A program made the position numbers and the translations under genes. Positions 23,011-49,774 of a DNA stretch of 64,000 bases are shown here, one piece after another (positions within the stretch are counted from its first letter, which is position 1; every line of letters starts with the position of its first letter). The stretch comes from Anaerolineales bacterium (lineage in GTDB: Bacteria; Chloroflexota; Anaerolineae; Anaerolineales; Villigracilaceae): contig JAUXUL010000001.1 of assembly GCA_030680795.1 (NCBI GenBank), positions 1-64,000 of the forward strand, in the 5' to 3' direction. Below the pieces are notes generated by a model. That model was not told where the DNA came from, did no database searches, and worked only from the letters and a program-made list of their open reading frames with translations.

Positions 23011-23039
23011 TTGACCATCCACCGTTCTGCCCGTACAAT
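23011..23039 (+). promoter_or_regulatory. Promoter for an apparently leaderless mRNA
   Basis: TTGACC (23011-23016), 17-bp spacer, TACAAT (23034-23039). The ATG of the glucosidase gene is at 23047, so transcription should start at or next to the start codon. No Shine-Dalgarno sequence is present between box and ATG, which agrees with leaderless translation. Confidence 0.65.
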
Positions 23040-23046
23040 AAGCGCC

Positions 23047-25437
23047 ATGCGCGACTGGTCTTTAACCCTCGGCGATCCACTCCACCTCACTCTTGCGGCG
23101 GATGCCCGCCTTTGCAAGCCAGACTACACCAATGACCATATCTGGGAAGTGGAACTTGGCACAGCAGATGCAGAACGCGCCGCGATTTCGTTATACACTA
23201 CCTTTGGTTTGCGCGCGCTCTCTATGCGGATATTTTTGCGTTTCACCGAAGGCCGCCACACAGTTACAGACCCTAACACCTTCATCACCAAACCGTCGCT
23301 TAAACGTTTCTATCCAAACTTCCTAACCCTCGATTTCGTTCCCCTCGAAAACCTTTTTGTCACCACAGATTTCTGGGTTCCCGAATCTCACGCCTCTGCC
23401 GGACGCGTAACCATCACCAACAAAAGCACTGCCACCCGCCAGATCAAACTCGAAGTCTGTGCCACCCTCGCCCCGCTGGATGGACAATCCATCATCCCCA
23501 CCCAACAACAACTCGTAAATATTCTAGCAGGACAAACCAGCGGAATTGCCCCCGTCCTCTTTATGACTGGCGGCCCCAAGCACGGACCGGGCCCGCATGC
23601 CTCGCTCATGTTGGACTTGGAACTTGGTCCCGGCGCCACACGGACATTATCCTTCGCTGAAGCCGCTCTCGACACCATCCCCAAAGCCTTTGATCTCGCG
23701 CGTAAAACTGCCGCCCGTTCATGGCAAGCCGAACTCGCCCGCATTGAAATGCTGGATGCCTCGCAAGTGTTGGACATCCGCACTGGCGACCTCGAATGGG
23801 ATGCCGCGCTCGCCTTCAGCCAGAAAGCCGCGCTCGCCTTATTCTTCAGCGAAGGTGAACATTTGCCAAACCCATCCTTCGTGAACGCTCGCTCCATAGA
23901 TCATGGCTACTCACGGACAGGGGACGGCACAGATCACCCGCCCGCCTGGAACGGCCAATTCCCAATGGAGACATACTATATCTCCAGCATTTTGCATGGC
24001 CTGCCGCAAGTGACAAAGAACCTGTTGCTCAACTTCCTCGCCACACAGGATGAAGATGGCGAAGTGGATGGCAAGCCCGGATTGGCAGGTCAGCGCGGAA
24101 AATTTTTAGCCGCGCCCGTGCTCGCCAGCCTGGCCTGGAAATACTACCAAGCCACGCAGGATGAATCTTTTCTGGCAGAGGTATTTCCAAAATTAATTAA
24201 ATTCTTCTGGTCGTGGTTCTCCGGCGCGCATGACCGCAACCGCGACGGCGCGCCCGAATGGGATCACATTCTGCAAACCGGTTTCGACGACAACCCCATC
24301 TTTGATGTCTGGCATCCGTGGTCACAAGGCTTGAATATTTCACTTGTGCACAGTCCGGCGCTGGAAGCCATGCTATATCGTGAAGCGCAGACTCTTGCGA
24401 AGATCGCCAAAAAACTTGGCAAGCCCGATGAAGAAACCGACCTGATACAAGCACAGGCTGAAAAATTAAAAACATCCATTGAAGCGGGTTGGAATCCGCG
24501 CACCAGTTTTTATTCCTATCGTGACCGCGAAACGGGTTTGGTTTCAACCGGCAAGATCATCGCAAGGAAAAAAGGCACTGGTACGCAAAACATGCGACTC
24601 AAGTTTGAGTCCGAGAGTGGAGTCCGCTTGTTGATCGAAATCCAGACCAAAAGTCCAGCCGCGAAGCGACCGCAAGTGGAGATCGGCGAATACTTCAGCA
24701 AATCCAAAGGCGAAGTTGAAACCATTTTGGGTCATCAATTCCAATGGCGCACAGGCGGGCTGGTGGCAACCAGTCAAAAAATCTATAACCGCGTCGGGCG
24801 TATCACCGTCACAGGCTTGGATGAAAAAGATAAGATCATCGTCAAGGTCGTGGATACCAGCGGCGAAGACATCACACTGGCGTTGCCGCTCTGGGCTGGG
24901 GTTCTCGAAAAGCAAAAAGCCAACGCATTGATCGGGCGCAACCTGATGACAGCCGAACGCTTTGACCGCCCCTTTGGAATGCCTTCTCTTCCGCTCTCTC
25001 CCGATCCTGAAGCTGAATCGGTTTCAATGAGCGTGAGCCTGCCCTGGAACATGTTGATCTGCGAGGGCTTGCTCGCCTACGGATTCCGCGCGGAAGCCAC
25101 ACGCCTGACCGCGCATTTGATGAACGCCGTGATCCAAAACTTAAAACAGAGCCGCGCTTTTTATCAACGCTATCACGCCGAAAAAGGCGGGGGCATTGGC
25201 GAACGAAATTCATTGCACGGCTTCGCGCCGGTTGGTTTGTTCATGCAGGCATTGGGTGTGACAATTCTTTCATCTACACGGGTAAAACTCGAAGGTAGGA
25301 ATTTATTCCCGTGGCCCGTTACGATCAAATATAAAGGTCTCACCGTTGTACGCGGCATGGAGCAAACGACGATCACATTTATGAACAGCGAGAGTATGAT
25401 TGTCAAAGAAGAAACTGCTTGTATTGTTGATATGTAA
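23047..25437 (+). CDS. GH63-like glycoside hydrolase
   Basis: About 796 residues from the ATG at 23047; the TTG upstream at 23011 is the -35 box of the promoter. The C-terminal two thirds look like an (alpha/alpha)6 barrel: WNGQFPMETYYISSILHGL, then DEDGEVDGKPG, WKYYQATQDESFL and DRNRDGAPEWDHILQTG, with PEWD and DR-x-RDG resembling the acid residues of GH63 glucosidases. Bacterial GH63 enzymes include glucosylglycerate and mannosylglycerate hydrolases. The window has a glucosylglycerate-type cluster 14 kb away, which makes such an activity a reasonable guess, nothing more. No signal peptide, so it acts in the cytosol. Confidence 0.72.
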   Translation: MRDWSLTLGDPLHLTLAADARLCKPDYTNDHIWEVELGTADAERAAISLYTTFGLRALSMRIFLRFTEGRHTVTDPNTFITKPSLKRFYPNFLTLDFVPLENLFVTTDFWVPESHASAGRVTITNKSTATRQIKLEVCATLAPLDGQSIIPTQQQLVNILAGQTSGIAPVLFMTGGPKHGPGPHASLMLDLELGPGATRTLSFAEAALDTIPKAFDLARKTAARSWQAELARIEMLDASQVLDIRTGDLEWDAALAFSQKAALALFFSEGEHLPNPSFVNARSIDHGYSRTGDGTDHPPAWNGQFPMETYYISSILHGLPQVTKNLLLNFLATQDEDGEVDGKPGLAGQRGKFLAAPVLASLAWKYYQATQDESFLAEVFPKLIKFFWSWFSGAHDRNRDGAPEWDHILQTGFDDNPIFDVWHPWSQGLNISLVHSPALEAMLYREAQTLAKIAKKLGKPDEETDLIQAQAEKLKTSIEAGWNPRTSFYSYRDRETGLVSTGKIIARKKGTGTQNMRLKFESESGVRLLIEIQTKSPAAKRPQVEIGEYFSKSKGEVETILGHQFQWRTGGLVATSQKIYNRVGRITVTGLDEKDKIIVKVVDTSGEDITLALPLWAGVLEKQKANALIGRNLMTAERFDRPFGMPSLPLSPDPEAESVSMSVSLPWNMLICEGLLAYGFRAEATRLTAHLMNAVIQNLKQSRAFYQRYHAEKGGGIGERNSLHGFAPVGLFMQALGVTILSSTRVKLEGRNLFPWPVTIKYKGLTVVRGMEQTTITFMNSESMIVKEETACIVDM

Positions 25438-25635: not shown

Positions 25636-26984
25636 AAAATCTTCAGAGACTTCGCCAATTCATTCACACTCCAACACCTGCGGAACGTCAGAAAATCGTC
25701 AACGAGATTGTCGAATCCGCTTCGCCGCGCTTTGACTTTTTCCTGCTTGTGGTGCTTTCATGCAGTATCGCCACCATGGGCTTGATCATAAACTCCCCTG
25801 CAGTGATCATCGGGGCCATGCTTGTCGCGCCCTTAATGTCGCCGATCATTGGGCTTGGTTTGGCATCCATCATCGGCAATGCAAAACTGGCCGAGTCTGC
25901 GCTTTTAGCTTTCGGGCTCGGCGCTGCGCTGGCTGTCCTGCTATCCACAGCGCTGACAATCATCAATCGCAATTTGCCCTTTGCCGTGTTATACGAACTG
26001 CCTAATGAAGTATTGGTGCGCACACATCCCTCTCCTATTGATCTGGCCATTGCGCTGGCAGGAGGACTCGCCGCCGCATACGCCATGACGCGCCCAAACA
26101 TCTCGGCGGCGCTGCCTGGTGTGGCAAATGCCACTGCGCTGATGCCGCCATTAGCCACAGTTGGCATCGGACTCGCTTGGAGCATTGGGAGGTCGCGGGC
26201 GGCGCGGGATTATTGTTCATCACCAATGCCATAACCATCGCCTTCGCCGCAGCCCTCATATTTTTTCCTGCAAGGTTTTGCATCCGGAACACATTTGGAA
26301 AACCATCGCGCTCCGCGTACTCTGGTAATCTCCGCGCTCCTGATGTTGATCCTACTGGTGCCGCTTTCCTATTACAGCACCCGATTTTTTAATGAAGCCA
26401 ACGAGAATCGAAATATCAATGAAATCGTCGCGTTGGAAGTCGCGCGCGTAAACGGCTCGGAACTGATCGAATTGGATGTGCAACGGATGCAGGATCGTCT
26501 GAACATGATCGCCACCATCCGCACAAATATCCCGCTGCGCTACGATCAGGTGACGCTGCTCCAAAAATCCATTGCGACCAACCTGCAAAAACCCGTCGCA
26601 TTAAAAGTGAATCAGATATTGGCGGAGCAATTTGACCCTTTGATTCCCCCCACATTTACGCCGACAGTCCAATTCACCCACACGCCAACCCAAACCCCAA
26701 CTGCGACGTTGACCCCCACGCCGATTCCCACTGCGACTTTTACGCTGACGCCTACCGCGGGGTTGGTTCAAACTGCCAATGGAACTTTACCGCCCCTCAA
26801 ACTGTATCAATCACCAGGTGGGCCAGTGATCGGGCAGATACTTCGGAAACAGACGCTTGTTCTATTATATGAAAGATTGGAATTGAACGGCTTGATCTGG
26901 GTCAATGTGATGGACAGCGAAGGACGGATTGGCTGGGTTCCGGAAATGTACCTGTATTTTATCACTGCAACACCAGAGCAATAG
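25632..26984 (+). pseudogene. DUF389 membrane protein with SH3-like tail, interrupted by two compensating frameshifts
   Basis: The first part, from TTG 25632 after AGGAAAGG, has the DUF389 signature (NSPAVIIGAMLVAPLMSPI) and several membrane helices. The frame is lost near 26175, continues in another frame as HWEVAGGAGLLFITNAITIA, and returns to the first frame at the T6 run 26262-26267. One added T near 26175 and one removed T from the T6 run would give an unbroken protein of about 450 residues. The restored product continues with a membrane helix, a periplasmic segment, a Thr/Pro linker (~26650-26755) and an SH3-like domain ending at 26984. Both indels are in homopolymers, so sequencing error is as likely as decay. 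Function of DUF389 is unknown. Confidence 0.75.
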
Positions 26985-27114: not shown

Positions 27115-28749
27115 GTGAAAAAAACTGTTGTTGCAGCTGCATTGGGCGAATGTGTTCATGTGGCAGGTATTATGAATTTTCTCAGGCTCGCGGAATCGGC
27201 TGGATGGAATACCGTATTTCTTGGCCCCGCTGTACCGATCGAAGAAGTGCTAAACGCGATAAAACGCGAAAAGGCTGATCTTGTCGGAATTTCATATCGC
27301 CTCACACCTGAAACAGGTGAGCGTTTGCTTGGCGAATTTGCAGAAGCCGCCTCTGAGTTACACGAGAAGGGAATCCGTTTTGCATTTGGGGGTACGCCTC
27401 CTGTTGTTGAACGCGCAAAAATCATAGGTTTCTTTGAACGCACATTTGACGGCAGTGAACCCGTCGAGGAGATTCTTGCCTATTTAAAGGGCAAGCAGGT
27501 TTCGGGTCAGAACGAAGCGAGTTACCCTCAATCCACTGTTGAACGGATCAAATGGAAATCTCCTTATCCGATCCTTCGTCATCATTTTGGACTCCCCACG
27601 ATGGAAGCGACAATTGATGGAATAAAAAAGATCGCAGAAGCGAAGGCGTTGGACATCATCTCGCTTGGCATTGACCAGGACGCGCAGGAAAATTTTTTTC
27701 ATCCTGAAAGACAGGATGCGCGGCGCAAAGGCGCGGGCGGCGTGCCAGTTCGTTCGGAGGAGGATTATCGCGCATTATATCAAGCCAGCCGCCGCGGAAA
27801 TTATCCGCTGTTGCGAACCTATTCGGGGACGGATGATTTTATTAAACTGGCAGAAATGTACGCGCGGACGATCAACATCGCATGGTGTGCCATTCCGTTA
27901 TTCTGGTTCAATCAGATGGACGGGCGCGGACCCTGGGATTTGGAAGATTCGATCCGCGAACATCAAAGTGTAATGAAGTGGTACGGTGAACATATTATTC
28001 CCGTTGAATTAAACGAGCCGCATCATTGGGGCATGCGCGATTCTTCGGATGTTGTATTTGTGGTCGCGGTGTATCTTTCCGCGTATAACGCGCGCGCATT
28101 TGGCGTGAAAGATTACATCGCGCAATTTATGTTCAACAGCCCGCCAGGATTATCCGACGCGATGGATCTGGCAAAGATGTTGGCGGGACTTAAGATGATC
28201 GAACCACTTGCAAATAAAAGCTTTCATATTTTGAAACAAACCCGCATCGGCTTACTCTCACATCCACTTGATTCTGATGCGGCGCGCGGGCATCTGGCGG
28301 CTGCCACATATCTGCAAATGACATTGAAGCCACATATCTATCACATCGTCGGTCATACTGAAGCGCATCACGCTGCGACCGCCGAGGATGTCATCGAAGC
28401 CGGCAAGATCGTGCGCCGCGCGATTGACAACGCGCTGGGCGCGCCTGATATGACGGCAGACCCTGCGATCAAGAAACGCGTTAATCAACTGGTTGCGGAG
28501 GCCAACAAAGTATTGGACGCGATCCGCAAACTTTCCGCCTCATCTTCGGACGCACTCATTGATCCCATAGCTTTGACTCGCGCTGTTACTTCGGGCATTC
28601 TTGATGCGCCGCAATTGCTCAATAATAGATTTGGGCGTGGTTTGGTAAAGACCCGCATCGTGAACGGTGCAAGCGTATCTGTTGACGGTCAGAACAAACC
28701 AATTTCGGAAAGTAAACGTATCAAGACATTGTTAAAAAAGGAGGCGTAA
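27115..28749 (+). CDS. B12-binding, mutase-like fused protein of unknown substrate
   Basis: 544 residues. Residues 1-125 look like a cobalamin-binding Rossmann domain: GECVHVAGI sits where the D-x-H-x-x-G cobalt-ligand motif belongs, with His kept and Asp changed to Cys, followed by ADLVGISYRLTPETG and FAFGGTPP. Residues ~145-480 are a large alpha/beta domain (ALDIISLGIDQDAQENFFHPE, NEPHHWGMRDSSD, HTEAHHAAT) reminiscent of catalytic subunits such as methylaspartate mutase E, but I cannot assign it. GTG start at 27115 after GAGAGGAGAG. It is followed 3 bp later by an opine dehydrogenase-like gene, suggesting a joint pathway. Confidence 0.65.
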   Translation: MKKTVVAAALGECVHVAGIMNFLRLAESAGWNTVFLGPAVPIEEVLNAIKREKADLVGISYRLTPETGERLLGEFAEAASELHEKGIRFAFGGTPPVVERAKIIGFFERTFDGSEPVEEILAYLKGKQVSGQNEASYPQSTVERIKWKSPYPILRHHFGLPTMEATIDGIKKIAEAKALDIISLGIDQDAQENFFHPERQDARRKGAGGVPVRSEEDYRALYQASRRGNYPLLRTYSGTDDFIKLAEMYARTINIAWCAIPLFWFNQMDGRGPWDLEDSIREHQSVMKWYGEHIIPVELNEPHHWGMRDSSDVVFVVAVYLSAYNARAFGVKDYIAQFMFNSPPGLSDAMDLAKMLAGLKMIEPLANKSFHILKQTRIGLLSHPLDSDAARGHLAAATYLQMTLKPHIYHIVGHTEAHHAATAEDVIEAGKIVRRAIDNALGAPDMTADPAIKKRVNQLVAEANKVLDAIRKLSASSSDALIDPIALTRAVTSGILDAPQLLNNRFGRGLVKTRIVNGASVSVDGQNKPISESKRIKTLLKKEA

Positions 28750-28752
28750 AAT

Positions 28753-29862
28753 ATGAAAGCTATTAATTTTGCTGTTGTGGGGGCTGGTCATGGCGGCAAA
28801 GCCATGGCGGCGCATCTCGCGCTGATGGGGTTTTCCGTCTCGCTGTATAACCGCACACCCGAACGTATTGCCGTGATCAAAAAACGCGGCGGCATCGAAT
28901 TAGTGGATGGAGGCGATAGCGTACCGAATGGGTTTGGCAAACTGGTGCGGGTGACATCCAACATGGATGAGGCGCTAAAGAATGTGGAAGTCATCATGGT
29001 GGTCCTGCCATCTTCCGCGCATGCGGATATTGCCAATGCAATGTCGCCGCATTTGAAGGATGGACAGATCGTCATTTTGCATCCGGGGCGTACCTGTGGC
29101 GCGCTGGAATTTTCCAAAATTTTGCGCGACACCGAATGTAAAGCGGATGTGACCATTGCTGAAGCGGAGACTTTCATTTACGCAGCACGTTCTGATGGTC
29201 CCGCGCAGGCGCATATCTTCCGCATCAAGGAAGCTGTTCCGCTTGCCGCACTACCTGCCACGCGCACACAAAAAGTGCTGGATGCGATCATCGATGCATA
29301 TCCCCAATTCATTGATGGGGGCGATGTGCTAAATACAGGCTTGAACAATATGGGCGCCATCTTCCACCCTGCGCTAACTTTGCTCAACACAGGCTGGATC
29401 GAAGCTACGCACGGCGATTATCAGTTTTACATTGACGGCGTGACGCCGTCCGTTGCGCGTATGTTGGAAGTGCTGGATCGCGAGCGTGTAACCGTAGCAT
29501 CTGCATTGGGTCTCCGGGCGCGTACTGCGCTGGAATGGCTGAAACTCGCATATGACACAGAGGGCGAAGACTTGCACGAAGCAATTCATAACCAGCCCGG
29601 TTATTACGGCATCAAAGCCCCGCCCACGCTTAATCATCGTTATCTCTTTGAAGATGTGCCGATGAGCCTGGTGCCCATTGCATCCCTGGGAAAACGATAC
29701 GGCGTTTCCATACGCGGCATGGAAAGCATGATCCAGATCGCCAACATCCTCCACCGCACCGATTACTGGCGACGCGGACGCACTGTGGAAAAACTTGGGC
29801 TTGAACACATGAGCGTAAGCGAGTTAACGCACTTCGTACAGGAAGGTGTGATTGATTCATAA
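28753..29862 (+). CDS. NAD/NADP octopine/nopaline-dehydrogenase family protein
   Basis: 369 residues, full length. The N terminus has a Rossmann motif AVVGAGHGGKAMAAHLALMG, and the C-terminal helical domain has GLNNMGAIFHPALTLLNTG, with the His of the catalytic region. Opine dehydrogenases reductively join an amino acid and a 2-oxo acid; this family also includes enzymes for metal-binding opines and for N-(1-carboxyethyl) amino acids. The gene starts 3 bp after the B12-binding gene and overlaps the next methyltransferase gene by 11 bp. Substrate not predictable from sequence alone. Confidence 0.85.
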   Translation: MKAINFAVVGAGHGGKAMAAHLALMGFSVSLYNRTPERIAVIKKRGGIELVDGGDSVPNGFGKLVRVTSNMDEALKNVEVIMVVLPSSAHADIANAMSPHLKDGQIVILHPGRTCGALEFSKILRDTECKADVTIAEAETFIYAARSDGPAQAHIFRIKEAVPLAALPATRTQKVLDAIIDAYPQFIDGGDVLNTGLNNMGAIFHPALTLLNTGWIEATHGDYQFYIDGVTPSVARMLEVLDRERVTVASALGLRARTALEWLKLAYDTEGEDLHEAIHNQPGYYGIKAPPTLNHRYLFEDVPMSLVPIASLGKRYGVSIRGMESMIQIANILHRTDYWRRGRTVEKLGLEHMSVSELTHFVQEGVIDS

Positions 29863-30535
29863 CAGCCCGATCTTGAACCACAGGGAAAGCCGCGCCAATT
29901 ATGACCGCCTGAGCCGCTGGTACGACCTGCTCAGCGGTTCAAGCGAACGCCCCGCACGGTTGCGCGGTCTGCAGATGCTGGATATCCAGCCTAGAGAACG
30001 CATCCTTGAAGTTGGATGCGGAACAGGAGAGTCTCTACCCACGTTGGCATCCCGCGCAGAATCTGCAGGCTGTGTCTTCGGCTTGGATCTATCTGCGGGC
30101 ATGTTGGATGTCGCAAAGAACAAACTCAAAAAACTTTCTTTATTCAACGTCACCTGCCTTCAAGGTGATGGAGTCCGATTGCCATTTCAAGATGAGTCAT
30201 TCGACGCTGTTTTCATGAGTTTTACGCTGGAATTATTTCCCGCAGAAGAGATGCCCCGCCTTCTTCAGGAATGTATGCGCGTGCTTCGTTCTGGCGGACG
30301 AATCGGTGTTGTGTCCCTTTCACAGACGGAAAAGCCAGGCTGGATGGAAAGACTCTACACTTGGGCGAATCACCGCTGGTCACGCATCATTGACTGCCGT
30401 CCAATTCTGATCGAAGATGTTATAAAGGACGCTGGCTTTGAAATTTCCGGCGCCCACGAAATGTTCATGTGGGGGTTGGTGATTGGCATTCTCGTTGCCA
30501 TCAAACCTCTGCAAATCAACCCGAAAATTAACTGA
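29852..30535 (+). CDS. Class I SAM-dependent methyltransferase (UbiE-like)
   Basis: 227 residues. SAM-binding motif I ILEVGCGTGESLPTL, motif II FGLDLSAGMLDVA, and LPFQDESFDAVFMSFTLELFP are visible. The best start is the TTG at 29852, with AGGAAGG eight bases upstream, which overlaps the opine dehydrogenase gene. The last ~20 residues are hydrophobic (MWGLVIGILVAIKPL), perhaps a membrane contact. Probable substrate is the product of the neighbouring enzymes, or a quinone/lipid; both are guesses. Confidence 0.85.
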   Translation: MIHNSPILNHRESRANYDRLSRWYDLLSGSSERPARLRGLQMLDIQPRERILEVGCGTGESLPTLASRAESAGCVFGLDLSAGMLDVAKNKLKKLSLFNVTCLQGDGVRLPFQDESFDAVFMSFTLELFPAEEMPRLLQECMRVLRSGGRIGVVSLSQTEKPGWMERLYTWANHRWSRIIDCRPILIEDVIKDAGFEISGAHEMFMWGLVIGILVAIKPLQINPKIN

Positions 30536-30562
30536 AACATAAATAAAAAGGAGAAATAAATT

Positions 30563-32056
30563 ATGTGTGGAATCGCTGGCGCATTACAACAACCAGCAAG
30601 TGACAATGTCAAAAGTATGGTTGAAAAACTTGCTCATCGGGGGCCCGATGGTCATGGCGTGAAAAACCTTGCACATGCAACCCTCGGACATACACGCCTG
30701 GCTATTTTGGATATCGAAGGCGGCGTTCAGCCCATGGGTTTTGAGGATACGTGGATCGCGTTCAACGGGGAAATCTACAACTATCGCGAACTGCAAAAAA
30801 AATATCTGCCCGAACTAAAAATGCAAACTCATTCTGACACTGAAGTAATGATGCATCTTTACCTCAAGCTCGGTGTGGACTTTGTGAAACATCTCGATGG
30901 TATGTTCGCCATCGCCCTTTATCAAAACGGTGAGTTTATGCTCGCACGTGATCCGCTGGGAATCAAACCCTTGTATTACGGCACAAGTCTTGATAATCAA
31001 CATTTTTATTTTGCATCCGAGATTAAAGCCCTGAAGGATCATGTAAACTCCATCAAGGAATTTCCCGCCGGACATTGGTATCACTCACAAAAAGGATGGA
31101 GTCGTTATTACAACATAAATGAAACCATCCAACCGTTTGAGGGAACGGAAAACGCTGCGCTGCCTTTGATCCGCTCGACACTGAAAGATGCAGTACAGAA
31201 ACGCCTGCTTGGAGACGTCCCGGTGGGGGTAAGTCTTAGCGGCGGATTGGACAGCAGTATTGTCTCCATGCTTGCATGTGAAGGGACGGAACAACTCCAT
31301 TCCTTTGCAGTTGGCGTGGAAGGCAGTGAAGACCTCCCCGCGTCACAGCAAATGGCCGAGTTCCTCAACACCAAACATCACCAGCTCATTTACACATCCG
31401 AGGACATGGTTAACGCCCTGCCTGATGTTCTTTATTATTTGGAAACCTTCGATCCCGCGCTCGTGCGCAGCGCCATCCCAAATTATTTTCTCGCCAAACT
31501 TGCATCGCAGCACGTCAAGGTATTTCTCACCGGCGAAGGCGCAGATGAGATCTACGCGGGATATGAATATCTTTCAGATTTCACCAATCCCGAAGCTTTG
31601 CAGCAGGAAATGATCGACATCACCCAATCTCTGCACAACACGAATCTGCAGCGCGCAGACCGAATGTCGATGGCGTTTGGATTGGAAGCCCGCGTCCCCT
31701 TTCTGGATACCGAATCTGTTTCGCTTGCATTGAGTTTTCCCGCCGCCTGGAAATTGCACAACGGACGCGTCCCCAAACAGCTCCTGCGTCAGGCATTCGT
31801 AAATGACCTGCCTGAGAATATCGTCAGCCGGCCCAAACAAAAATTCTCCAAAGGCGCCGGCTCTTCAGATATACTTGCCGTACTTGCGAATCGCGAAATA
31901 TCAGACAATGCATATTCATCCGAAAGCATGCGATTAAAGAACGAGTGGAATTACACGCTGCAAAACAAGGAAGCCTTGTATTATTACAAAACCATCCATG
32001 AACATTATGCCGACGAGTTTCTGTTCCACACCATGGGACACAGCCGCAGTTTATAA
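30563..32056 (+). CDS. asnB: Glutamine-hydrolysing asparagine synthetase
   Basis: 497 residues. Cys2 of MCGIAGAL is the class II glutaminase nucleophile; FNGEIYNYREL and DGMFAIAL follow. The synthetase half has the ATP-pyrophosphatase loop SLSGGLDSSIVSML and FLTGEGADEIYAGYEY. It is a little shorter than E. coli AsnB (554 residues). AsnB-like enzymes amidate aspartate but are also used for other carboxylates in secondary metabolism. Being the fourth gene in a co-directional set, it may act in that pathway. AAAAGGAG site present. Confidence 0.9.
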   Translation: MCGIAGALQQPASDNVKSMVEKLAHRGPDGHGVKNLAHATLGHTRLAILDIEGGVQPMGFEDTWIAFNGEIYNYRELQKKYLPELKMQTHSDTEVMMHLYLKLGVDFVKHLDGMFAIALYQNGEFMLARDPLGIKPLYYGTSLDNQHFYFASEIKALKDHVNSIKEFPAGHWYHSQKGWSRYYNINETIQPFEGTENAALPLIRSTLKDAVQKRLLGDVPVGVSLSGGLDSSIVSMLACEGTEQLHSFAVGVEGSEDLPASQQMAEFLNTKHHQLIYTSEDMVNALPDVLYYLETFDPALVRSAIPNYFLAKLASQHVKVFLTGEGADEIYAGYEYLSDFTNPEALQQEMIDITQSLHNTNLQRADRMSMAFGLEARVPFLDTESVSLALSFPAAWKLHNGRVPKQLLRQAFVNDLPENIVSRPKQKFSKGAGSSDILAVLANREISDNAYSSESMRLKNEWNYTLQNKEALYYYKTIHEHYADEFLFHTMGHSRSL

Positions 32057-45953: not shown

Positions 45954-46412
45954 ATGAATGTAGCTTCCTGTATGAAACGAAACGTGGTTTCCATTCCATT
46001 GACCGCCAGGATCCGTGAAGCCGCCGCCATCATCGTAAAAAAACATATCGGTTTACTGCCTGTGATCGATCGGAAGGGGAAACCGGTTGGCGTAATCGGG
46101 CTGCGCGATTTGCTAAATCTCGAACTGCCGGATTTTGTCAAGTTTGTGGAAGATGTGGATTTTGTCCACGATTTTGGCGCAGTGGAAGAGACCCGACCGC
46201 CCGCAAAGATGCTGAAAAAAACCATCCGTTCTTTGATGCGGCCTGTAATTACTGTCGAGGGGGATTGCGGCCTCCTTCGCGCATATGCCTTGATGCTGCA
46301 ACAAAACCTGCACGACATTCCAGTGGTGTCAAAAGACGGGCGGCTGGTTGGGATTGCTTCCCGCGTGGATGTCGGCGTTGCCATCCTTTCCACCTGGTCC
46401 AAGGTGGAATGA
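45954..46412 (+). CDS. Tandem CBS-domain protein
   Basis: 152 residues. Two CBS motifs: LPVIDRKGKPVGVIGLRDLL and IPVVSKDGRLVGIASRVDVG. CBS pairs bind adenine nucleotides and act as energy or ionic-strength sensors. The TGA overlaps the ATG of the next permease gene, so it probably regulates that transporter. A TATACT-type -10 box lies at 45917-45922 upstream. Confidence 0.92.
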   Translation: MNVASCMKRNVVSIPLTARIREAAAIIVKKHIGLLPVIDRKGKPVGVIGLRDLLNLELPDFVKFVEDVDFVHDFGAVEETRPPAKMLKKTIRSLMRPVITVEGDCGLLRAYALMLQQNLHDIPVVSKDGRLVGIASRVDVGVAILSTWSKVE

Positions 46413-47701
46413 TGCCCATATTCCCAGTCCTCCTTTCCAGTCTCATCTTTTTTGGAAGCCTCATTCTCATCTTTTCCGAGAAGATCAACCGTTCTATCGT
46501 CGCTATTGCCGGGTCGGTGTTGATGATCGGAGCGGGAAAATTTCTGGGTTTTTATTCAGAAGAAGCCGCAATCGAAGCGATCGATTTCAACACGCTGGGG
46601 CTTTTGATGGGCATGATGATCTTGGTCGCCATGCTCGAACCAACCGGATTCTTTGAATACCTCGCGGTGCTCGCCGCACGTGCGTCAAAAGGAAAGCCCG
46701 TGCGTCTGTTCATCCTTCTGGGAGGCATAACCACCATCCTTTCCATGTTCCTTGATAACGTGACGACTGTGGTATTGATCGCGCCCGTGACCATTCTTAT
46801 CAGCGAGATCCTCGGTGTCAGCGCTCTCCCCTATCTTATAGCGGAGGCGCTGTTATCGAATACGGGAGGGGTTGCCACCCTGGTGGGCGATCCGCCCAAC
46901 GTGTTGATCGGCTCCGCGGCAAACCTGTCCTTCATCGATTTCCTTGTGTATTCCCTGCCCATTGTCCTTGTCGCATGGGTGGCTGCGTTGATCCTTTTAC
47001 TATACCTGTTCAAAAATGAATTGTCCAAACGCCCGCGCAGAAGCAAGGCCGTGATGAAACTCATACCCGCCGAAACACTCAACCAGCCTGAGACAGCCCG
47101 CCGGATTTTGGTCGTGTTGGGCGGGGCAGTATTATTTTTCTTCGTGCATCACCTGTTGCATATCGAACCGGCTTTTATTGCGCTCAGCGCCGCCGCAATT
47201 GCCTTGATCTGGGTCCAGCCCGATATTCAGGAAGTATTGAAGAAGGTGGAATGGAGTGTGCTTCTTTTCTTCGGCGCTCTTTTTATCATGGTTGGAGGGC
47301 TGCAGCATTCGGGAGTACTTAAAATGGTGGCCGGAATATTTGATGCCGCAACTGATGTTTCCCCGGTTCTGTTTGGGGTTTTGATTATTTGGGTTGTGGC
47401 CGGCCTTTCCGCCGTGGTGGATAATGTGCCGATTACCATCGCATTGATTCCCATCGTCAAAGAACTGGGAGCGACCGGCATTAATATAACGCCATTGTGG
47501 TGGGCGCTTGTATTTGGCGCAGGCTTTGGCGGCAACGGCACGATCATCGGCTCCACTGCGAACATCATCGTTGCCTCACTTTCCGAAAAAACGCGCACAC
47601 CCATCACAGCATCCCTGTGGATTAAACGCGGCCTGCCTGTCATGCTGTTGACCTGTCTCATTGCCAGCATCCTGTTTGCCATTTTATACAAGGTCTTCTA
47701 G
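46409..47701 (+). CDS. SLC13/ArsB/NhaD-type ion permease
   Basis: About 430 residues from the first of two adjacent ATGs (46409; the second is 46412). Ten or more membrane helices. FLDNVTTVVLIAPVTI and GGVATLVGDPPNVLIGSAANLSFIDF, then GFGGNGTIIGSTANIIVASLSEK near the C terminus, are the re-entrant loop motifs of the ArsB/NhaD/citrate-transporter superfamily. Substrate cannot be fixed: Na+/H+, arsenite and anions all occur in the family. Coupled to the CBS gene by overlap. Confidence 0.85.
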   Translation: MMPIFPVLLSSLIFFGSLILIFSEKINRSIVAIAGSVLMIGAGKFLGFYSEEAAIEAIDFNTLGLLMGMMILVAMLEPTGFFEYLAVLAARASKGKPVRLFILLGGITTILSMFLDNVTTVVLIAPVTILISEILGVSALPYLIAEALLSNTGGVATLVGDPPNVLIGSAANLSFIDFLVYSLPIVLVAWVAALILLLYLFKNELSKRPRRSKAVMKLIPAETLNQPETARRILVVLGGAVLFFFVHHLLHIEPAFIALSAAAIALIWVQPDIQEVLKKVEWSVLLFFGALFIMVGGLQHSGVLKMVAGIFDAATDVSPVLFGVLIIWVVAGLSAVVDNVPITIALIPIVKELGATGINITPLWWALVFGAGFGGNGTIIGSTANIIVASLSEKTRTPITASLWIKRGLPVMLLTCLIASILFAILYKVF

Positions 47702-47802
47702 TTCCATTGGTAAATGGGCGCAGCCATGTCAAAATACGGCTATTACAGGAGAAATTGTTTCACATCCAAACAGAAGCGGGTATACTTTAATCGTAACATT
47801 CG

Positions 47803-49077
47803 ATGAGCATCTTTCTGCAACTTGCCTTTCTCCTTTCGATCATCCTGCTCTCTGCAAAGATGGCGGGATATTTAAGTATTCGCATCGGCCAGCCCTCGGT
47901 ATTGGGGGAGCTTTTGGTTGGCATTTTACTTGGTCCCTCCCTCATCAATTTGCTCAATCTCTCTTTCATTGAGCACGAACTCACAGAGACGGTTGCCAAA
48001 CTTGGCGAACTCGGCGTGTTGTTGCTCATGTTCCTCGCGGGATTGGAATTACATTTCGGCGAGATGAGACAGAATCTACGTGTAGCCGCTTTTGCTGGGT
48101 TAATGGGCGTGGTCTGGCCTGTTTTGCTGGGATGGGGCGCTGGTCTGCTTTTTGGTTTGGATCAGTCTGCTTCGATCTTTCTTGGACTGATACTTGGCGC
48201 CACCAGCGTGAGCATCTCCGCCCAGACGTTGATCGAGCTAAAGGTGTTGCGCAGCCGTGTTGGAATAAGCCTGCTCGGCGCGGCAGTGTTTGACGATGTA
48301 TTGATCATCTTATTGCTTTCTGTATTTCTCGCCCTGCAAGGCGGGGGCGGAAGCAGTTACGATATTTTATTGATCATCGTCCGCATGGTCTTGTTCCTTG
48401 CCCTTTCGGTGATGTTTGGCTTATGGGCGTTGCCATGGATCATCCGACGTATCTCCAAACTTCCTGTCAGCCAGGGCTTGCTTACTATTTCTCTCGTCAT
48501 TATGCTGGCCTATGGCATCGCTTCGGAGTATTTTGGCGGCATGGCGGCCATCACAGGCGCATTTTTGGCTGGCTTGATGTTGGCGCGCACACCTGAAAAA
48601 GAGAGAATCGAATCAGGTATGCACGCGCTTGCTTATGGATTGTTCGTACCGATCTTCTTCGTCAACATTGGTCTATCCATTGATCTGCGCGAGTTCCAAT
48701 TACAGGCATTGCTCTTTACAGTTGTTATTATTCTGGTGGCAGTTGCCGGCAAATGGCTTGGCTCGGGCTGGGGCGCGCGGCTGGGCGGACTTTCGCAACG
48801 CGAATCGATTCAACTCGGCGCGGGGATGATCTCGCGCGGCGAAGTGGGGCTGATCGTTGCAAGTGTGGGGAAACTCGCAGGTTTGGTTAACCCAGAGGAG
48901 TTTTCCGCAATTGTCGTCATGGTGCTGATCACCACCTTGATCACACCGCCCATCCTGCGCGCATTGTTTACGCAAAAGGAAGATAAGGCGAAGAAAATGC
49001 AACTCGAAGCGGAGCAGGTTCCGGCTTCGTCTGCAACGTCCCCGCAGGGGGATGCGAATGAATTGGAGGTGTCCTAA
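47803..49077 (+). CDS. CPA2 (KefB-like) monovalent cation:proton antiporter
   Basis: 424 residues, about 12 membrane helices, no TrkA-N domain. QPSVLGELLVGILLGPSLI, LGELGVLLLMFLAGLELHF, GAAVFDDVLIILLLS (the paired acidic site in helix 5) and GMISRGEVGLIVASVG are typical of CPA2. It likely exchanges K+ or Na+ for H+. The RCK domain that usually gates Kef proteins is missing; the three small PII-like proteins encoded directly after it may replace it. No clear Shine-Dalgarno; a TATACT box lies about 20 bp upstream. Confidence 0.92.
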   Translation: MSIFLQLAFLLSIILLSAKMAGYLSIRIGQPSVLGELLVGILLGPSLINLLNLSFIEHELTETVAKLGELGVLLLMFLAGLELHFGEMRQNLRVAAFAGLMGVVWPVLLGWGAGLLFGLDQSASIFLGLILGATSVSISAQTLIELKVLRSRVGISLLGAAVFDDVLIILLLSVFLALQGGGGSSYDILLIIVRMVLFLALSVMFGLWALPWIIRRISKLPVSQGLLTISLVIMLAYGIASEYFGGMAAITGAFLAGLMLARTPEKERIESGMHALAYGLFVPIFFVNIGLSIDLREFQLQALLFTVVIILVAVAGKWLGSGWGARLGGLSQRESIQLGAGMISRGEVGLIVASVGKLAGLVNPEEFSAIVVMVLITTLITPPILRALFTQKEDKAKKMQLEAEQVPASSATSPQGDANELEVS

Positions 49078-49439
49078 TGTATTTGATCATCCTGTTTTTA
49101 CATAATCCAGACCTGTTGGAAGAACTGTTAAAAGAATGGAATGATGAAGGCGTGGATGGCGCGACAGTGCTCTTTAGCACGGGTATGGAGCGGCTTCTTC
49201 AAAAGCAGGGAATACGCGATGATATTCCGCTCATTCCTTCGCTGGATGATTTTTATAAAGCGCCGGAAACACTCAGCCGTACGATCTTTGCAGTCATAAA
49301 AGAAGAAGCCCAGATCGATAAAGTTCTCGCCGCCACGCAACGTGTGACGGGAGATTTGAATACTCCCGGAGCTGGTGTGTTTCTTGTCATGCCGGTATTG
49401 AAGACATACGGTTTTATAGAACAAGGGAGAAAAAAATGA
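49077..49439 (+). CDS. PII-like small regulatory protein
   Basis: 120 residues, strand-helix-strand-strand-helix-strand ferredoxin-like fold: MYLIILFLHNPDLLEELLKEW at the front and FAVIKEEAQIDKVLAATQRVTGDL, then GVFLVMPVLKTYGF at the end. No uridylylated Tyr loop. The start overlaps the last base of the antiporter stop codon. It may form trimers that bind a nucleotide and gate the antiporter. Confidence 0.65.
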   Translation: MYLIILFLHNPDLLEELLKEWNDEGVDGATVLFSTGMERLLQKQGIRDDIPLIPSLDDFYKAPETLSRTIFAVIKEEAQIDKVLAATQRVTGDLNTPGAGVFLVMPVLKTYGFIEQGRKK

Positions 49440-49774
49440 CACAAAGCCCAGTTCAATTATTATTGGTGGCAGTCATTCAAGATCAAGACCTTGAGACCGC
49501 AACCAAGGCCTTGCAGGGCCTTGGCGCATCGCTGACTTATCTTTCAAGCGCGGGCGGTTTCCTGAGCCGCCGCAATGCCACCTTGTTGATCGGTCTGCCT
49601 GCTGAAAAGAAAAATGAAGCCTTCGCAGCATTGCAGGAAGCCTGCCGCCAGCGCGTTGAATATATGACCCTTCCGCTCGAAGGCTCGTCCATGCCGATGC
49701 CCGCGCCTGTGCCAGTCACCGTCGGCGGCGCGACTGTGTTTGCGTTACCGGTTGAAAGATTCGAACAGATTTGA
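49436..49774 (+). CDS. Cyclic-di-AMP receptor-like PII protein (DarA/CdAR type)
   Basis: 112 residues. QLLLVAVIQDQDLETATKALQGLGASLTYLSS followed by AGGFLSRRNATLLIGL matches the DarA/PstA pattern, in which S/T-x-G-G-F-L binds the nucleotide. The C-terminal GGATVFALPVERFEQI is also typical. Starts 4 bp inside the previous gene. Binding of c-di-AMP would connect the antiporter to turgor control. Confidence 0.8.
   Translation: MTQSPVQLLLVAVIQDQDLETATKALQGLGASLTYLSSAGGFLSRRNATLLIGLPAEKKNEAFAALQEACRQRVEYMTLPLEGSSMPMPAPVPVTVGGATVFALPVERFEQI

Follow-up and report, generated by a model that had tools for sequence, protein, structure and literature searches.

The 64,000-nucleotide stretch analyzed here (positions 1 to 64,000 of the forward strand of contig JAUXUL010000001.1, GenBank assembly GCA_030680795.1, from an Anaerolineales bacterium; hereafter the window) carries two adjacent genes, one for a B12-binding mutase-like protein and one for an opine dehydrogenase, that represent a conserved two-gene unit inherited together in many Chloroflexota. 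We propose, with slightly better than even confidence, that the pair constitutes an undescribed two-step module in which an adenosylcobalamin (AdoCbl)-dependent mutase is coupled to an opine dehydrogenase for acidic amino acids. An earlier note on this DNA had placed the pair in one pathway with the methyltransferase and asparagine synthetase (AsnB) genes that follow. The layout it described, four co-directional genes separated by a 3-bp gap, an 11-bp overlap and a 27-bp gap, agrees with the open reading frame (ORF) coordinates; of the single pathway, the union of the first two genes stands, and the last two turn out to be loosely attached. The earlier note had named no described pathway with its set of four genes, and no published description of the pair was found in the literature searched, outside of which lay most subscription papers and all preprints; there, the combination of ‘opine dehydrogenase’ with ‘Chloroflexi’ led to Telek et al. 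(PMC10787698) only.

Pairing and co-inheritance of mutase and dehydrogenase

Scanning genome contigs with the B12 protein yielded 177 stretches that encode a relative, the nearest named ones being Anaerolineales of the Chloroflexota. We kept 80 loci as the clade-A set, across which the B12 protein is 66–84% identical in its best segment, a conservation far above chance. Homologues outside Chloroflexota were not seen among these 80 of the 177 relatives, as judged by recognised names, which does not imply their absence elsewhere; plasmids gave no match with the window mutase, and with the protein of a second clade (clade B, see below) GlmL-type matches only. The dehydrogenase gene adjoins the mutase gene on the same strand in 76 of the 80 loci, to which tblastn adds a further one (L093; 77/80), and it precedes the mutase in two of the 76 (L048, L062); in nine loci, the mutase and dehydrogenase genes overlap by 4 bp, counted from the first possible start. 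Two loci (L085, L203) are too short for judging the pairing, and the dehydrogenases of L093, L188 and L205, masked by overlong ORFs, were missed by our ORF selection and recovered by tblastn. A ‘414-residue neighbour’ was rejected as a gene, being the antisense ORF of the dehydrogenase. In L095 (positions 461–2233), mutase and dehydrogenase sequences are fused in what looks like a deletion of the gene border, either real or an assembly error.

A full-length mutase was found in 17 of 61 genomes of the same order, which share kinship and are not 61 independent trials, and precisely these 17 also encode a dehydrogenase at more than 60% identity, both genes being duplicated in G009. The other 44 genomes are without either gene, bar a distant dehydrogenase (32%) in G059, and two further genomes among the 61 match by the B12 domain alone. 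Presence of the pair is patchy within the genus, which implies its repeated joint gain or loss. On a wider scale, the clade-A mutase was detected in 28 of 400 Chloroflexota genomes (E 1e-10), and a search through 249 genomes of the class met homologues of one or the other mutase clade in 84. Anaerolinea thermolimosa and Ornatilinea apprima are carriers that can be cultured. Scattering of the genes in relatives, named by the earlier note as the sign of chance proximity, is thus seen for the methyltransferase and AsnB, and the first two genes stay together.

The B12 protein is related to glutamate mutase by fold

Pfam assigns PF02310 (43.2 bits) to residues 4–102 of the B12 protein; the remaining ~440 residues are without any match. 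With the AlphaFold model (44 sequences; mean pLDDT 83.6, pTM 0.84, residues 187–211 below 50) as query, Foldseek ranked glutamate mutase E (GlmE) first and led from the N-terminal domain to the GlmS subunit. The latter domain matches 1cb7_A and 1i9c_A with a TMt of 0.74 at 28% identity, and GlmS is reached by hmmsearch as well (E 1.3e-4). In VIA-align, the model scored Z 30.1 against GlmE (1cb7_B; root-mean-square deviation 3.0, 362 aligned residues), 28.4 against lysine 5,6-aminomutase, 24.8 against ornithine 4,5-aminomutase and 18.6 against methylmalonyl-CoA mutase. Sequence searches alone fail to reach GlmE, and the GlmE family model PF06368 (cut-off 26.6 bits) finds no match in the window's genome; homology rests on the fold and on profile comparison, where hhalign of a profile built from 40 mutase rows of both clades against six GlmE sequences gave E 9.5e-8 (probability 94, 388 columns), and E 3.9e-6 with a smaller sequence set. 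Matches to designed barrels were taken as chance. Judged by the predicted model and these profiles, the B12 protein is a single-chain relative of glutamate mutase, composed of a GlmS-like domain and a GlmE-like barrel, a fold compatible with the carbon-skeleton rearrangement that the earlier note had envisaged.

The cobalamin motif deviates from the canonical DxHxxG in that His and Gly are retained and Asp is replaced by Cys, just as first read from the ECVHVAG of residues 12–18. Cys13 and His15 of this CxHxxG version are present in 99/99 aligned rows (window included, some duplicate loci), and His15 would by homology be the cobalt ligand. The invariant Glu416 aligns with a residue that we take to be E330 of the adenosine site. 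In glutamate mutase, the substrate is held by R66, R100, R149, E171 and Y177, as given in the accessible part of PMC10947579. Of the arginine claw (R66, R100, R149), R100 aligns with Gln191 and R149 with Tyr236, both of which are invariant across the 40 rows from the two clades, and no position could be assigned to R66; Cys, Ala or Pro takes the place of E171. The two clades, about 40% identical, have in turn R155, H157, R213, R234, R271, H283, R308, R377, H410 and H419 as invariant residues. Because claw arginines are replaced and new invariant residues have appeared, the substrate of the mutase is probably not free glutamate, yet anionic.

The window's genome (a 3.45-Mb assembly of 54 contigs) also encodes a cobalamin adenosyltransferase (PF01923) and, elsewhere, a MutL-like protein; genes of the latter type are spread over 200 of 400 Chloroflexota genomes, whether these have the mutase or not. 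They lie 13–30 kb from the mutase in five genomes and on another contig in several others. Linkage of MutL to the clade-A mutase was considered and rejected, since the gene belongs to a block of its own that is common to four genomes and occurs with or without the mutase; the 585-residue MutL-like protein at G000:C45:25835-27592 (L169) is a member of this block.

The opine dehydrogenase carries an acidic-substrate signature

The second protein matches PF02317 (Octopine_DH, 166 bits) and the Arthrobacter enzyme 1bg6 (E 7.8e-73), and its gene is the only PF02317 gene found in the window's genome. According to the accessible part of Telek et al. 2024 (PMC10787698), opine dehydrogenases from a hot-spring metagenome (mODHs) favour L-Asp and L-Glu as amino acids, and pyruvate is the keto acid that enzymes of this type prefer; double mutants revealed that Arg at position 111 and Gly at position 198 (Arthrobacter numbering) govern the acidic preference, and Arg at position 35 goes with NADPH. 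The window dehydrogenase has Arg113, Gly201 and Arg34 at positions 111, 198 and 35, respectively, and shows the reported state at 13 of the 15 cleft positions named there, the exceptions being 157 and 287. Its catalytic dyad consists of His205 and Asp301, with His conserved in 88/88 rows and Asp in 79/88 (Glu in the other nine). By these residues, the enzyme is predicted to accept acidic L-amino acids and to use NADPH.

The Arg/Gly pair is present in 88/88 clade-A dehydrogenase rows (a 17-row clade-A sample, itself a subset of the 88, holds L048 twice, and L089 was left out of set A2 because of stops in its stretch) and in 11/11 clade-B dehydrogenases, ten of them aligned and that of L188 read by eye, some of which are only 22–26% identical to the window copy. 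All 99 mutase-linked copies checked, some from duplicate loci, carry the signature, versus 1 of 20 unlinked PF02317 proteins from Chloroflexota, which were hand-picked, 19 from genomes in which no mutase was found and one from G248. The single unlinked Arg/Gly protein, L210, is encoded directly behind an importer 65–69% identical to the clade-B one described below, in a genome that carries a clade-A pair elsewhere; unlinked L228 has the Arg (by eye) and Ala instead of Gly. In a tree, the Arg/Gly proteins form clade A, the clade-B downstream type together with L210, and a very distant clade-B upstream type, and the other 19 unlinked proteins and the Arthrobacter enzyme stand apart. Either this signature is ancient and unlinked proteins have since lost it, or it has several origins; whichever holds, its occurrence goes with that of the mutase or the importer. 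In L230 (G248:C155), a family-5 ATP-binding cassette (ABC) importer is followed by an Arg/Gly opine dehydrogenase, without a mutase in 20 kb.

Genomic setting in the two clades

Clade B is exemplified by a 1,264-residue relative from G240 that combines the motif KCVHNLG and the mutase barrel with a C-terminal MutL domain (PF13941, 270 bits) and has a PF02317 gene directly upstream. Of 12 clade-B rows, 11 show CxHxxG and the remaining one has a gap there. Among the 13 loci of this clade (L136, L188–L199), 11 can be judged for pairing, and the dehydrogenase adjoins the mutase in all of them; L190 and L197 end just upstream of the mutase and have no dehydrogenase downstream. Genes of a family-5 ABC importer (at least 45% identity, same strand) are found in 10/13 loci and an RpiR/SIS regulator in 8/13. 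A neighbour scan of 10 proteins from 6 loci identified gamma-glutamyltranspeptidase and alanine-racemase-like genes in L198 (3924–6908) and L199 (1988–6716), the latter adding an amidohydrolase, which are possible further pathway steps; L136 has an amino-acid permease and an AAT-type hydrolase in addition. Based on the importer and these neighbours, the clade-B pair would probably serve uptake and breakdown of an imported amino-acid derivative.

In clade A, an NhaA, Na+/Ca2+ or CPA-type Na+/H+ exchanger was found in 25/80 loci (in 20 of the 54 loci of at least 10 kb), with at least one exchanger on the mutase's strand in 23 of the 25, and a CitMHS-type transporter in 9/80; the clade-B loci gave 0/13. 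In 1.0 Mb of loci, Na+/Ca2+ exchangers are present in 10 loci versus ~0.3 expected and NhaA in 6 versus ~0.06, the expectation being an estimate from counts in the 61 genomes and the other exchanger types being without a background count. NhaA is encoded in two of the 17 mutase-positive genomes (G006, G009), right beside the mutase both times. This recurrence is a hint at an ionic or osmotic role. The window has CitMHS-like transporter and Na+/H+ exchanger-like ORFs at 46019–49771, 17 kb downstream of the pair, and in many relatives members of these families are again encoded in its vicinity. An ATP-grasp (Dala_Dala_lig_C) protein is encoded near the pair in 7/80 loci, e.g., L034:3069-4124.

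Proposed mechanism

In the module that we propose, the GlmS-like N-terminal domain would hold cobalamin via His15 and the C-terminal GlmE-like barrel the substrate, and a 5'-deoxyadenosyl radical would, by homology, start a 1,2-shift. Pyruvate and an acidic L-amino acid, either Asp, Glu or one closely related to them, may be reversibly joined by the dehydrogenase, which would thereby make or split N-(1-carboxyethyl) derivatives. The mutase, acting before or after the dehydrogenase, may rearrange either this amino acid's carbon skeleton or that of the opine. The clade-B direction would probably be uptake, then breakdown. The methyltransferase and AsnB would be neighbours that contribute no steps. 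The genes, their pairing and co-inheritance, the fold of the predicted model and the signature residues are observations, and from there we infer AdoCbl use, substrate class, order and direction.

Several observations weigh against this proposal. On the side of the pairing, the mutase of L071 has no dehydrogenase that we could find in 8 kb, L095 retains only the C-terminal 82 residues of the dehydrogenase, continuing the mutase reading frame, and a distance of 1.9 kb separates mutase and dehydrogenase genes in G047. As to chemistry, the replacement of Asp by Cys in the cobalamin motif and the missing claw arginines speak against a plain glutamate mutase, such that the reaction could differ, and the mapping of the claw residues is itself an alignment at 18% identity; two mutase-positive genomes (G337, G413) are without a MutL homologue. 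One published mODH-type enzyme has a Michaelis constant of 24.8 mM for L-Asp, as far as the accessible part of its source tells, and Asp may thus not be the true substrate. Finally, an importer resembling that of clade B (35–50% identity) was met in only 1/80 clade-A loci (L063) and Na+ exchangers recur there instead, so that the setting of clade B may not be valid for clade A.

Alternative explanations

A more specific version of the two-step module has the mutase act on the opine itself, rearranging an N-(1-carboxyalkyl) acidic amino acid by radical B12 chemistry. Mutase and dehydrogenase would then form a new pathway, which would serve the degradation of such compounds in one clade and perhaps, beside Na+ exchangers, the synthesis of an anionic solute in the other. 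We advance this tentatively, as possible rather than probable. The six arginines and four histidines that are invariant in the barrel would suit a tricarboxylate better than glutamate, and a B12 rearrangement of this kind was not found described in the literature searched.

It is rather doubtful that the clade-A pair makes an anionic solute against salt or ionic stress, with opine-type di- or tricarboxylates balancing cations. The exchanger and CitMHS-type counts given above, those for Na+/Ca2+ exchangers and NhaA exceeding the estimated expectation, would fit such a role, as would the corresponding ORFs in the window at 46019–49074. However, the exchanger families were picked after being seen, the loci share ancestry so that the excess does not represent 25 independent events, and 27 further clade-A loci, partly from the same genomes, gave 4/27; exchangers also occur in 1/8 flanks without a mutase, and the window's genome lacks an NhaA (PF06965) or PF01699 gene.

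A divergent glutamate mutase that interconverts glutamate and 3-methylaspartate, with the dehydrogenase N-carboxyethylating 3-methylaspartate or splitting the resulting opine, seems unlikely to us. GlmE is the top fold match, and dehydrogenases of this type take Asp and Glu according to the accessible part of PMC10787698; yet the genome is without a PF06368 match, and in place of R100, R149 and E171 we find invariant Gln191, invariant Tyr236 and one of Cys, Ala or Pro.

For the metallophore product considered in the earlier note we found no specific support, and a pathway in which the pair makes an opine-type chelator that is re-imported by the family-5 ABC system is quite improbable. Opine zincophore clusters do couple an opine dehydrogenase with import machinery, as clade B does with its family-5 importer, but according to the accessible part of PMC7438024 they have nicotianamine synthase upstream of the dehydrogenase, where here the mutase stands. 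The clade-B regulator is of the RpiR/SIS type, and gamma-glutamyltranspeptidase and racemase-like neighbours suit breakdown.

In marine invertebrates, opine dehydrogenases serve as a fermentation redox sink. That the dehydrogenase reoxidises its cofactor here by condensing pyruvate with an amino acid supplied by the mutase appears very improbable: pyruvate is indeed the preferred keto acid of this enzyme type in the accessible part of PMC10787698, but the mutase would be needless and the clade-B importer setting does not fit.

Neighbouring genes in the window

Among loci with room for it, the methyltransferase (blastp E 1e-10) lies directly downstream of the dehydrogenase in 4/63, and AsnB more than 45% identical and at most 3.5 kb downstream of the dehydrogenase in 11/52. 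Within 20 further loci, AsnB lies behind the dehydrogenase in L130, L133 and L134 (53–54%), all from another class, and in L145 (35%), and upstream in L148. The AsnB protein, with Pfam domains Asn_synthase and GATase and the N-terminus MCGIAG including Cys2, is the only one of the four proteins above an NCBIfam cut-off (equivalog NF006949, 557.5 bits vs. 499). As this cut-off is passed and no other PF00733 gene was found in the window's genome, AsnB is most simply explained by housekeeping asparagine synthesis and is probably not a pathway step. The methyltransferase probably does not belong to the core unit either; its assignment as the corrinoid-associated CpaM was rejected (69 bits vs. a cut-off of 180). 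The methylation and amidation steps of the earlier note are not supported by these counts, and one biosynthetic pathway from all four genes is highly improbable, despite the tight spacing in the window and the AsnB genes of the other class.

Upstream of the pair (see Table 1 for its coordinates), the window encodes an 808-residue MGH1-like glycoside hydrolase (23011–25437), homologues of which occur near the pair in several relatives, and a 229-residue protein (26295–26984) without a Pfam match, whose N-terminus is hydrophobic and whose linker is rich in Thr and Pro.

Table 1. Genes, domains and signature residues of the four-gene region in the window.
Feature	Coordinates	Strand	Basis or remark
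Single-chain AdoCbl mutase-like protein (clade A), 544 aa, GTG start	27115..28749	+	ORF, relatives
GlmS-like B12-binding domain, ~residues 1–128 (predicted)	27115..27498	+	PF02310, fold, hmmsearch
ECVHVAG motif, residues 12–18	27148..27168	+	Cys13 for Asp of DxHxxG; His15 retained
GlmE-like TIM-barrel domain, residues 134–537 (predicted)	27514..28725	+	AlphaFold model, 1cb7_B, hhalign
Opine dehydrogenase, acidic-amino-acid type, 369 aa, predicted NADPH use	28753..29862	+	PF02317, 1bg6, signature residues
Arg113 codon (Arthrobacter Ala111), acidic-substrate determinant	29089..29091	+	Arg in 88/88 linked clade-A rows
Gly201 codon (Arthrobacter Asn198), acidic-substrate determinant	29353..29355	+	Gly in 88/88 linked clade-A rows
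S-adenosylmethionine (SAM) methyltransferase (Methyltransf_25/UbiE type), 227 aa, TTG start	29852..30535	+	Pfam; variable neighbour
Asparagine synthetase B, glutamine-hydrolysing, 497 aa	30563..32056	+	NF006949; probably housekeeping

Relation to known systems and significance

Among known systems, glutamate mutase (GlmS and GlmE, with GlmL/MutL) is alike in the fold of both domains, and in clade B a MutL-type domain is fused to the mutase. Here, in contrast, both domains reside in a single chain that begins with the B12 domain, the Asp of DxHxxG has given way to Cys, two claw arginines are replaced and one is not placeable, and PF06368 remains unmatched. The glutamate mutase clusters of Rhizobium and Ensifer have a methylaspartate ammonia-lyase, none of which was seen among the neighbours identified here. 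Ornithine 4,5- and lysine 5,6-aminomutase have a related fold, weaker in match than GlmE (Z 24.5–28.4); in their pathways, too, an AdoCbl barrel mutase is paired with a dehydrogenase, although of other families. The window dehydrogenase, 38% identical to the Arthrobacter enzyme, shares with the mODHs Arg at 111, Gly at 198, Arg at 35 and the 13 of 15 named cleft states, a likeness judged by the residue states published in the accessible part of PMC10787698. With the opine zincophore clusters (CntKLM; PMC7438024, accessible part), the pair has the opine dehydrogenase in common, and clade B also the family-5 importer; the fixed partner here is a B12 mutase, and nicotianamine synthase is absent from the nine window proteins scanned.

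Through this pairing, the hot-spring type of opine dehydrogenase, presented as a biocatalyst with neither genomic context nor physiological role stated in the accessible part of PMC10787698, gains a fixed genetic partner. The few AdoCbl carbon-skeleton mutases would gain a new branch that differs in cobalamin motif and substrate pocket. Since the pairing narrows the candidate substrates to acidic amino acids and the opines derived from them, only a handful of compounds would be needed to approach the reaction. The finding thus bears on how Chloroflexota of sediments and hot springs may make use of amino-acid derivatives.

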